Origin: Deltaproteobacteria bacterium RIFOXYA12_FULL_61_11
GTDB taxonomy: Bacteria > Bdellovibrionota_F > JAHFAK01 > YA12-FULL-61-11
Assembly (NCBI GenBank): GCA_001799195.1
Contig: MGSU01000261.1
Coordinates: forward strand, 1-6,457
Reading direction: 5' to 3'
DNA: 6,457 bases
The translations under genes were made by a program, and so were the position numbers. The notes below the pieces were generated by a model. That model worked only from the letters and a program-made list of their open reading frames with translations. It searched no databases and was not told where the DNA came from. How positions within the stretch are numbered: position 1 is the first letter of the stretch; every line of letters begins with the position of its first letter. Below, piece by piece: positions 2,084 to 6,259 of the stretch.

Positions 2084-2746
2084 TCAATCACTCGTGGGGA
2101 GGACCTGGTACTCCCCGACCTCTGCCGTGCCCTGTTGGCCGAGGAGATCGACCTCGGAGACGGTGAAGGAGATACGGTCCCCCTTGTTCAGCCCGGGCAG
2201 TACGGTTTCCTCCGCACCATAGCCGGCGAGGAGGTGGTAGATATAGTACTCACCCTCGAGCCCGATCCCTCCCTCTTTTGGCGGCGTGTATGAGACCGTG
2301 TTCCCTTGGGTCGTCTCGGTTCCTTCCAGAATGCGGCGCAGTTTGGCAGGGCGGGCGCTGTAGCGCAACCGGAGGGTGAGTTCTTGCCCCACGCTCAGGC
2401 GCAGCACGGATTGGGGATCCTCGGCGCGATCGAGGGCCGTGATCTCGACCTTGGCACTGTCGGCGGGGTCGTTCGGCCCCTGTTCAAAGATCGTATCGAG
2501 GGTCACTTCCACTACTTCTGCCGTAACCACGGCTGAGGCCGCGCGGGCCAGGCCGGGCTCCGGTGTACCCTCGTCCGGCAGTCCACTAGGGGGGGGGGGG
2601 TACGTCTGCGCGGTGGACGTATCTTGATTATTCGTCATCGAGGAGGGGAGGGCATTGTTGCCACTGGTGCGGTCCCCATCCTCGGAGGCCGGTTCGCAGC
2701 CGTAGGTCAACCCGAGAGCGAGCGCGAAGGCCAAGAGGGTCTTCAT
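2084..2746 (-). CDS. Small lipoprotein of unknown function with a C12 homopolymer in its coding strand
   Basis: The ATG at 2746 is preceded by GAGGAA at 7-nt spacing, a strong ribosome binding site, so I reject the longer frame reaching 2842. The 220-residue product starts MKTLLAFALALGLTYGC, a short signal peptide whose LTYGC fits a permissive lipobox. Cys17 would be lipidated after signal peptidase II cleavage. Residue +2 is Glu, so outer-membrane sorting is likely in a Gram-negative. Residues 18-70 form a low-complexity Ser/Asn/Thr/Pro/Glu linker with four prolines at 50-53. These come from 12 consecutive C on the coding strand (2589-2600). Residues ~72-220 look like one compact beta-rich domain: VVTAEVVEVTL, then a VGQELTLRLRY strand, and GDRISFTVSEVDL near the end. 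I recognise no family. It lies directly upstream of nadE. One base more or less in the C tract would truncate the protein in the linker. Confidence 0.87.
   Translation of the reverse strand: MKTLLAFALALGLTYGCEPASEDGDRTSGNNALPSSMTNNQDTSTAQTYPPPPSGLPDEGTPEPGLARAASAVVTAEVVEVTLDTIFEQGPNDPADSAKVEITALDRAEDPQSVLRLSVGQELTLRLRYSARPAKLRRILEGTETTQGNTVSYTPPKEGGIGLEGEYYIYHLLAGYGAEETVLPGLNKGDRISFTVSEVDLLGQQGTAEVGEYQVLPTSD
2589..2600. repeat. Homopolymer G12 (C12 on the coding strand of the lipoprotein gene)
   Basis: Twelve uninterrupted G on the plus strand encode the four prolines at residues 50-53 of the lipoprotein. In the present length the gene is in frame. I worked out the alternatives by hand: 13 C puts a TAG immediately after the tract, and 11 C leads to a TAG at 2514-2512, so either change ends the protein in the linker. 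Long mononucleotide tracts are classic slipped-strand sites and also sequencing-error sites; the sequence alone cannot tell which applies. Confidence 0.95.
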
Positions 2747-2953: not shown

Positions 2954-4129
2954 ATGAACAACCGGAACCCCGCTGAGCGGCGCTCGCGGTTTTTGCCGAT
3001 AGCCTGGAACTGTTTGGTGAACCGACGTTCGCCGATGGGCTTGATCCACTTCGTGACCAACCGCTGCAACGCGAAGTGTGCCCATTGCTTCCACGGATAC
3101 GGCCGCGAGGTCGAACAGACCGCTCGAACCGGCTTGTTCTCACATCCCGGTGACGCCGAGTTGCGCCTCGATGAGCTCGAGCAGCTCGCTCGGCACCTCG
3201 GTCCTTGCCTGTTCAATGTCAACCTCAGCGGCGGCGAGCCCTTCCTGCGCGAGGACCTCGAGGCCATCGGCCGAGCCTACCTCGGACTCGGAGGGGCGGC
3301 TTCCCTCTTTGTCAGCACCAACGGCAGTTTTCCCGAACGCGCCCTCTCGTTGGCCAGGATGGTCGCCGTGGAGTATCCTGACCGCGTGCTCTTCCTGTCC
3401 ATCTCCTTGGACGACTTGCCCGAGCGGCACGACCGCGCCAGAGGGATCCCCGGCCTCTTCGAAAACGCACTCGCGACCTACCATCGCGCGAGGGAGGTTG
3501 CCTCCAACGTGCGTTGCCTGATCAACCTGACTGTGTCCGAGTACAACTACCGCAGCGCTGCGGCCGCGTATCATCACCTCATCCGGGATTGCGGCGTGCG
3601 GAACCTCACCCTCGGGATGGCCAGGAACGAGGGTTTCTACACCGCCTCCAAGGGCTTGGAGGCGGAAGTCCTGGCCACGCTCGAAGCAGTGCAAGGCTTC
3701 CTCCGGAAGGACCGACGGGCCGGACGTCTCGAGAGTCCGTCGGAGGCGAGCGGCCTCTTGGCCACCATGCACGAGGCCAAGAACCGACTCCAGACCCAGT
3801 TCCTCGAGAACCAGCGACGCCAGCCGGGCTATGTGCTCGCGTGCCGGGCCGCGGCGCTCTTCGGCATCCTCGGGCCGAGCGGCGAGGTTTTTCCCTGTGA
3901 ATTGGTGCCGCGTTCTCTGGGTAATGTGCGGGATTATTATTACGAATTCATTGACTTGTGGCACGATTCCAAGGCCGAGGCCATGCGCACTTGGATCGCG
4001 ACGACCCGTTGTCACTGTACCTACGAATGCGCCTGGACCTACAACCTGCTCGCCGACTGGGGTTGTCTCGGAGCCATGGCCGGCCTGGGGTTGTGCACGA
4101 GGATCGGTCGGCCGCGCACCGACGGGTGA
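2954..4129 (+). CDS. Radical SAM protein with SPASM-like auxiliary cluster region
   Basis: This is a radical S-adenosylmethionine enzyme of 391 residues; its substrate is unknown. The cluster-binding CxxxCxxC is at Cys38, Cys42 and Cys45 within TNRCNAKCAHCF. The SAM-binding GGEP is at 93-96, a strand ending STNGS is at 121-125, and SLDDLPERHD is at 151-160, as in the partial TIM barrel of SPASM/Twitch-type enzymes. The tail carries Cys297, Cys315 (GEVFPCE), then Cys353, Cys355 and Cys359 (CHCTYEC), suitable for at least one auxiliary iron-sulfur cluster. The ATG at 2954 is preceded by AGGA at about 6 nt; a later in-frame ATG (residue 28) would leave almost nothing before the core, so I keep the first. 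The TGA at 4127-4129 is 3 nt before the rudS start, implying one transcript. Related tails occur in peptide-, carbohydrate- and RNA-modifying radical SAM enzymes, so the family alone does not set a substrate. No signal peptide is present. Confidence 0.92.
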   Translation: MNNRNPAERRSRFLPIAWNCLVNRRSPMGLIHFVTNRCNAKCAHCFHGYGREVEQTARTGLFSHPGDAELRLDELEQLARHLGPCLFNVNLSGGEPFLREDLEAIGRAYLGLGGAASLFVSTNGSFPERALSLARMVAVEYPDRVLFLSISLDDLPERHDRARGIPGLFENALATYHRAREVASNVRCLINLTVSEYNYRSAAAAYHHLIRDCGVRNLTLGMARNEGFYTASKGLEAEVLATLEAVQGFLRKDRRAGRLESPSEASGLLATMHEAKNRLQTQFLENQRRQPGYVLACRAAALFGILGPSGEVFPCELVPRSLGNVRDYYYEFIDLWHDSKAEAMRTWIATTRCHCTYECAWTYNLLADWGCLGAMAGLGLCTRIGRPRTDG

Positions 4130-4132
4130 ACG

Positions 4133-5092
4133 ATGGAAGCCTCTCCCCTCGGTCCGGTCCGCGTGTTGGTCAGCGCCTGTCTCCTCGGCGAAGAGGTTCG
4201 GTACGACGGGAAGCACACGTACGACGCCTTCCTGGTGGAACAGTTAGGGCGCCATGTCGTGTGGGAGGGCATTTGCCCCGAGCGGGACAGCGGTATGCCC
4301 ATCCCGCGACCCCCGATGCGGCTTATCGGCGAAGCTGCCGCCCCACGGCTCATCAGCCGTACCGGGGCTGATCTGACCGAACAGATGCAGCGTTTCATAG
4401 AGAGAAAACTGGCGGCCCTCGAGGCGATCGAGTTGTGCGGCTATGTGTGCAAGTCCAATTCGCCCAGCTCGGGTATGACCCAGGTACACATCTATGACGA
4501 GCAAGGCCGGGCTGCCGGCACAGGTTCGGGACTTTTTACGGCTGCCTTCCTACGGCGCTTTCCCCTGATCCCGGTGGAAGAAGAAGGCCGTTTGCGCGAT
4601 GCTCGGTTGCGCGAGGCCTTCATCGAGAGGCTCTTCTGCCGACGGCGCTGGCTCGATCTGATGGCCTCGGGACCCGATCGCGGCACCTTGGTTGAGTTCC
4701 ACACCGAGCACAAGTTCCTCCTCCTATCGCATGGTCGCCGCGGGTATACCGAACTGGGTCGGTTGGTCGCCGCTGCCAAGGACTACGAACCGCAAACCCT
4801 GTTCGCGACCTACGAAAAGATGTTCATGGCAACTCTGGCCCAACCGAGTACGGTGAAGAAGGTTCTCGACGTCCTGCAACACCTGCTCGGCTTCTTCAAG
4901 GAACAACTCAGCGGAGACGAGAAACGCGAACTGCTCGAAACCTTCGAAACCTATCGCCGTTCTCAGGTGCCTTTGATCGTGCCGCTCACCCTGATCCAAC
5001 AGTACGTGCGCAAGTACGAGGTGACCTATCTCGCCCGTCAGGTGTATCTCTCGCCCTATCCGGCCGACCTGATGCTGCGCAACAGTCTGTGA
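4133..5092 (+). CDS. rudS: TudS (DUF523)-DUF1722 fusion, tRNA 4-thiouridine desulfidase (RudS-type)
   Basis: The 319-residue protein joins two domains. The N-terminal TudS/DUF523 domain (about 9-150) shows VSACLLGEEVRYDG at 13-26, CPE at 48-50, a PIPRPP loop at 56-61, KSNSPSSG at 107-114 and GTGSGLF at 129-135. The C-terminal DUF1722 (YbgA-like) domain (about 183-317) shows LVEFHTEHKFLLLSHG near 186-201 and ends YLSPYPADLMLRN. TudS proteins are [4Fe-4S] desulfidases acting on thiouracil. Fusions with DUF1722 (RudS) remove sulfur from 4-thiouridine in tRNA, with DUF1722 proposed to bind the tRNA. Cys16 and Cys48 are probable cluster ligands. The usual third Cys of SPSCG is Ser113 here, while Cys102 and Cys106 lie just before it. 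Length matches the fusion family. The ATG at 4133 follows the radical SAM stop by 3 nt, with a modest GGGTGA as ribosome binding site. Family assignment is secure; the exact substrate is inferred from the family. Confidence 0.92.
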   Translation: MEASPLGPVRVLVSACLLGEEVRYDGKHTYDAFLVEQLGRHVVWEGICPERDSGMPIPRPPMRLIGEAAAPRLISRTGADLTEQMQRFIERKLAALEAIELCGYVCKSNSPSSGMTQVHIYDEQGRAAGTGSGLFTAAFLRRFPLIPVEEEGRLRDARLREAFIERLFCRRRWLDLMASGPDRGTLVEFHTEHKFLLLSHGRRGYTELGRLVAAAKDYEPQTLFATYEKMFMATLAQPSTVKKVLDVLQHLLGFFKEQLSGDEKRELLETFETYRRSQVPLIVPLTLIQQYVRKYEVTYLARQVYLSPYPADLMLRNSL

Positions 5093-5142: not shown

Positions 5143-5163
5143 AACCAACTCGTGAACCAACTC
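5143..5163. repeat. Two 9-bp direct repeats, AACCAACTC
   Basis: AACCAACTC occurs at 5143-5151 and 5155-5163, separated by GTG. The second copy overlaps the stop codon of the HD-GYP gene (5162-5164). Probably a small local duplication; no function is apparent. Confidence 0.5.
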
Positions 5164-6259
5164 ACCACGGGGCGAAATTGAAGGTGTAGTGCTTTTCCTC
5201 GAAGAGCCTGATGGCCACGTCGACCACCGCGGGGTCGTAGAGTTCACCGCGGTTGCGCAAGATCTCTTCGAGGGCCTTGTCGAGACCGAGGGCGGGACGG
5301 TAGGGGCGATGCGAGGCCATGACCTCGATCACGTCGGCCACGCAGAGGATGCGGGCCTCGAGCAGGATCGCTTCACCGACGAGGCCAGCCGGGTAACCCG
5401 AACCGTTCCAACGTTCGTGGTGCTGCAACACGCTCGGGGCGATCGGCCAGGGGAACTCGATGTTCTTGAGGATGTCGTAGCCGACCTCGGGGTGGAGTTT
5501 GATGATATTAAACTCGATCTCGCTGATCCTGCCCGGTTTCGACAGGATCTCGGCCGGGATGTAGATCTTGCCGATATCGTGGATGATGCCCGCGAGGCGG
5601 ATGCCCTCGACCCGTTTCTCGGGGAGTTGCATCTCTTGGGCGATGGCCTGGGCGAGGTCAGAAACGCGGCGCTGGTGTCCGGCCGTATAGGGATCTCGGA
5701 TCTCGAGGGTCAAGGAGATCGCATGGATGATGCCCTCCATGGTCCGCTGCATCTTGACGAAGCTCTGCCTCAGGTTCTCTTCCTGCTGCTTGTGCGCGGT
5801 GATGTCGCGGATGATGCCCTGGTAGCCCATGGGCTCATGGTCGTCCGAGAGCCACACCGTGGAGGTGAGGAGACAATCGAGCAGCTTGCCATTCTTGTGC
5901 TTGAGCTTCACCTCGTATTCGCGGACGAAACCCTTCTGTTCTATCTCTGACTGGAACCGGGCCCGGTCATGGGGACAGTGATAGAGCTGCGAGGCCTCGC
6001 GGCCGATGATGTCCTCGCGGGAATAACCGAAGAGCTCCAATCCGGCGCGGTTGATGTCGACAAAACGTCCGTCGCGGGACGTCACATAAATGGCATCCCT
6101 CGAGCCCTCGAAGAGGTTGTGCAACATGCGCTCGCCGTCCCGGACCGACTTGTCCATCCCGCTTAACCCATCTAAACGGGTGCGCAATTCCCCGACTTGG
6201 AGAGTAAGGCGATCGAGTTCGGCGAGGAGTTGGGGTTTGGTCCGGCGGTCTTGAGCCAT
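5162..6259 (-). CDS. PAS domain-HD-GYP cyclic-di-GMP phosphodiesterase
   Basis: This 365-residue soluble protein is a predicted signal-controlled hydrolase of cyclic-di-GMP. Residues 8-34 form a short Leu-rich likely coiled coil. A PAS domain spans about 42-155, with DAIYVTSRDGRFVDIN at 55-70, the FGYS loop at 77-80 and a terminal GYQGIIRDIT at 145-154. The HD-GYP domain (about 175-350) has His195 in AGHQRRV, the HDIGK metal motif at 227-231, His256 in KLHPEVGYD, HHERWNGSGYP at 280-290 and Asp309 in CVADV. All expected metal-binding residues are present, so activity is likely. The GYP motif has Asn instead of the more usual Asp in DGxGYP. There is no receiver domain, transmembrane segment or signal peptide, so sensing would be cytoplasmic through the PAS domain; its ligand is not evident. 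The ATG at 6259 has GAGG four nt upstream. It is convergent with rudS and looks monocistronic here. Confidence 0.95.
   Translation of the reverse strand: MAQDRRTKPQLLAELDRLTLQVGELRTRLDGLSGMDKSVRDGERMLHNLFEGSRDAIYVTSRDGRFVDINRAGLELFGYSREDIIGREASQLYHCPHDRARFQSEIEQKGFVREYEVKLKHKNGKLLDCLLTSTVWLSDDHEPMGYQGIIRDITAHKQQEENLRQSFVKMQRTMEGIIHAISLTLEIRDPYTAGHQRRVSDLAQAIAQEMQLPEKRVEGIRLAGIIHDIGKIYIPAEILSKPGRISEIEFNIIKLHPEVGYDILKNIEFPWPIAPSVLQHHERWNGSGYPAGLVGEAILLEARILCVADVIEVMASHRPYRPALGLDKALEEILRNRGELYDPAVVDVAIRLFEEKHYTFNFAPW

Follow-up and report, generated by a model that had tools for sequence, protein, structure and literature searches.

The run of 12 consecutive C residues in a predicted lipoprotein gene (positions 2084-2746, minus strand) is probably an ordinary proline-rich lipoprotein spacer that is spelled almost only with CCC, with no dedicated switch. 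Four adjacent prolines, a preference for CCC, and weak constraint on the linker would together leave a C run as a by-product; like any such run, the tract is probably slippage-prone and would yield occasional frameshift mutants. The tests within the genome lean against a dedicated switch because the run count fits protein sequence and codon usage, because the longest run lies in an RmlD-like enzyme, because none of the other runs of at least 9 bases revealed a lipoprotein out of frame, and because the gene directly precedes what is apparently the sole nadE. We infer that selection for switching at this tract is lacking. The run, its frame, and the genome-wide counts given below are direct observations.

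The Lipoprotein Gene and Its C Tract

The window, the whole 6,457-nt stretch analyzed, is contig 261 of a 4.64-Mb genome (342 contigs, 87% complete). The only homopolymer of at least 6 bases in it is C12 at 2589-2600 on the minus strand (G12 on the plus strand). This tract lies in an ORF of 220 aa that runs on the minus strand from an ATG at 2746, with a GAGGAA motif just 5′ of it, to a TGA at 2084-2086. The N terminus of the product is MKTLLAFALALGLTYGC, comprising a basic residue, a hydrophobic stretch, and a lipobox Cys within residues 15-35 (Cys17); the lipoprotein call uses a PROSITE-type pattern. The predicted signal peptide, MKTLLAFALALGLTYG, ends just before Cys17. Like lipoproteins with a type II signal peptide and a Pro/Ser/Thr-rich tether, the product has a short signal peptide and its Cys17 follows a lipobox-like LTYG, but in contrast to the canonical lipobox, it has Thr rather than Leu at −3. 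Cys17 is followed by a Ser/Thr/Asn/Pro-rich linker, probably disordered, and then by a domain of ∼150 aa, the arrangement of tethered bacterial lipoproteins; unlike in those proteins, however, the domain has no recognized family, with no match in Pfam, NCBIfam, or the PDB. Judging from these sequence features, the protein would be exported and carry a lipid on Cys17, with a flexible linker as its tether. No homologs were found in 58 other genomes (one from the same phylum), GTDB contigs, or plasmids, and tblastn against the sampled loci, including a route through nadE synteny, matched the lipoprotein to itself alone. AlphaFold without an alignment gave a pLDDT of 35.

Across the tract, the codons read TAC-CCC-CCC-CCC-CCT (Tyr and four Pro), such that the 12 C residues comprise the last base of TAC, three CCC codons, and the leading CC of CCT. 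The assembled length is in frame, and the frame is kept at lengths of 9, 12, 15, and 18. Gain of one C or loss of two (lengths 13 and 10) leads to a TAG at 2588-2586 and a product of 52-53 aa, and loss of one C or gain of two (lengths 11 and 14) leads to a TAG at 2514-2512 and a product of 77-78 aa. As at phase-variable loci, a pure mononucleotide run of slippage-prone length lies inside a gene, and a change in its length shifts the frame and truncates the product. This arithmetic bears out an earlier note, which had described 12 consecutive C residues on the coding strand within the Pro-rich linker of a putative lipoprotein, a TAG right after the tract on gain of one base, a TAG at 2514-2512 on loss of one base, and expression only at lengths equal to 12 modulo 3. 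A further point of the note, that the purity of the Pro codons is notable, stands only in part: the tract is pure C, but its fourth Pro codon is CCT and not CCC, the tract taking one base from the Tyr codon TAC and two from CCT. Moreover, the purity argument is weaker than stated because Tyr-Pro-Pro-Pro-Pro at the codon usage of this genome gives a run of at least 12 in ∼5% of cases.

The ORF has a coding score of 34, with the same frame favored before and after the tract. Because coding potential favors one frame on both sides, we take the assembled C12 to be the ON length.

Genome-Wide Run Counts and Chance

Whether the tract is more than chance depends on the null model, and an excess is not clearly present. 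The whole genome holds 64 C/G runs of at least 9 bases, 21 of at least 10, 6 of at least 11, 3 of at least 12, and 1 of 13. With base composition estimated from 306 kb of sampled sequence (61.9% GC), a null of independent bases predicts 4.9 runs of at least 12 against the 3 observed. A second-order Markov null predicts only 0.31, an apparent tenfold excess, and at 9 bases or more, it predicts 24 against the 64 observed. We counted the excess at both lengths against an ordinary linker. It favors a phase-variable locus, and in Bordetella pertussis, a null of the same kind flagged runs that were later found to be polymorphic (PMC1891110).

The most relevant null for a proline linker is synonymous-codon resampling, in which proteins are held fixed and synonymous codons are redrawn (279 kb of called genes, scaled genome-wide). 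On coding strands, this null predicts 4.7 C runs of at least 12 against 3 observed and 91 runs of at least 9 against 27 observed; long coding C runs are therefore, if anything, rarer than expected. The null is generous because it overpredicts short C runs as well (489 of at least 5 bases vs. 295 observed), and when rescaled by the observed deficit (∼0.3), it gives ∼1.4 runs of at least 12. Among Pro codons, this genome uses CCC most often (0.38-0.43). None of the 36 sampled PPP runs is spelled purely with CCC, which, together with the generosity of the null, we counted against an ordinary linker; the PPPP of an MnmA-like gene is spelled CCC-CCT-CCA-CCG, with mixed codons. A GC-rich, CCC-preferring genome is expected to have a few proline linkers with a C12, and a C run alone is therefore weak evidence of phase variation.

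Other Long Runs in the Genome

We examined 63 distinct runs of at least 9 bases: called genes contain 27 as C and 14 as G, and the other 22 fall outside them. Genes were called with a simple periodic Markov scorer, and single calls may be wrong. Called genes account for 91% of the sampled sequence, and 22 of 63 runs outside them is expected if constraint removes runs from genes. By gene number, lipoproteins are overrepresented among the coding C runs of at least 9 bases (10 of 27 vs. 17 of 239 genes; p = 6e-5). A special enrichment of C runs in lipoproteins was rejected when measured against PPP content (p = 0.23): lipoproteins hold 9 of the 36 PPP peptides (25%), close to their share of C runs, and this closeness supports the reading of the tract as an ordinary linker.

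All lipoprotein genes found with runs of at least 9 bases are in frame, and no lipoprotein in an off state was found: at the 22 noncoding runs, as judged by these gene calls, no lipoprotein-like frame extended into the run. Separately, one C10 among those 22 (L047:3030) may instead belong to a 659-codon ORF, within its signal region. No C/G run in the genome exceeds the C13 on contig 248 (L038:6257-6269), which sits in frame in the stretch encoding an RmlD-like (dTDP-4-dehydrorhamnose reductase) domain. The other C12 of the genome occupies codons 3-7 of a lipoprotein-like ORF of 392 aa on contig 68 (L039:1839-3014, minus strand), an ORF that the automatic lipobox pattern did not pick out. By its position right after the start codon, this second C12 is a better candidate for phase variation than the gene in the window. 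We counted against an ordinary linker that each C12 in the genome falls near the 5′ end of a lipoprotein-like gene. Two further lipoprotein genes, on contigs 132 and 141 (L175 and L177), carry an in-frame C9 ∼15 residues or less from the lipidated Cys.

The Downstream nadE Gene

An ammonia-type NAD synthetase gene, nadE, lies at 1267-2067 on the minus strand (Pfam PF02540, 2.5e-42). Its likely start, placed by alignment with other NadE proteins, is the ATG at 2067, which is 16 bases past the lipoprotein stop. No consensus promoter was seen between 1900 and 3000, and the two genes presumably form one operon. nadE is the only full-strength NAD_synthase match in the genome, a weak second match being an MnmA-like ORF; the nearest NadE proteins, ∼50% identical, are in Bacteroidota, Neisseriaceae, and Desulfobacterota. 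A frameshift at the tract would leave several hundred (>400) untranslated bases upstream of nadE and could in this way lower its expression.

Alternative Explanations

The main alternative is that the gene is a phase-variable (contingency) lipoprotein, in which slipped-strand mispairing at C12 would truncate the product at ∼52 or ∼77 aa, and slippage in the other direction would restore it. We consider this doubtful, but several features favor it: a stop is soon reached after either shift, runs of C9-C12 are found in several other lipoprotein genes, and the tract, in a GC-rich genome, is within the length range of known C/G switches (PMC1891110). In the B. pertussis genes tcfA and bapC, C/G coding runs were shown to differ in length from strain to strain or within cultures (PMC1891110), and two further reports describe such C/G-run length variation for Neisseria nalP, mspA, and hmbR (PMC3723659 and PMC3786947). 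The window gene resembles these switches in that a pure C/G run lies in a gene for an exported protein (export here being predicted) and a one-base change truncates the product. In contrast to them, C12 is known here from one assembled length, and codon usage explains the run count. Nothing in the analysis marks the source organism as a pathogen or commensal.

Further evidence against switching is the uniformly in-frame state of the run-bearing lipoprotein genes noted above, together with the likely polarity on the only nadE found. In addition, mononucleotide slippage is generally lowered by mismatch repair, and the genome encodes MutS and MutL, which supports an ordinary linker. Should the tract prove to switch, this uncultured, almost unsampled phylum would have a contingency locus that might also affect NAD synthesis.

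A second alternative is slippage of RNA polymerase or the ribosome on the C run, which would produce a constant frameshifted fraction at any DNA length and would buffer output without acting as a switch. Homopolymer runs are known to cause transcriptional slippage in bacteria, but here the explanation is improbable: there is no meaningful alternative frame downstream, the 77-aa shifted product ends in an unrelated tail, and the RNA around the tract folds no better than shuffled sequences do (z −0.14). A terminator-like site on the plus strand at 2597-2625 was taken as chance.

It would be more speculative still to regard the lipoproteins with C9-C12 in or near proline linkers as a phase-variable surface repertoire in which the window gene also tunes NAD synthetase by polarity, and we give this little credence. 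Least probable is a C12 length misassembled by one or more bases in the short-read consensus: the source is fragmented and incomplete and sequencing error is common at long homopolymers, but the assembled length keeps the frame, with the coding signal in one frame on both sides.

Neighboring Genes

The open-ended ORF at 3-1244 (413 aa) scores strongly as coding and matches no Pfam or NCBIfam family. Positions 2954-4129, divergent from the lipoprotein gene, encode a radical SAM protein that matches SPASM weakly; a 2-thiouracil desulfurase-DUF1722 fusion follows at 4133-5092. On the minus strand, positions 5162-6259 encode a PAS and HD-GYP-type (HD_5) protein, a probable cyclic-di-GMP phosphodiesterase.
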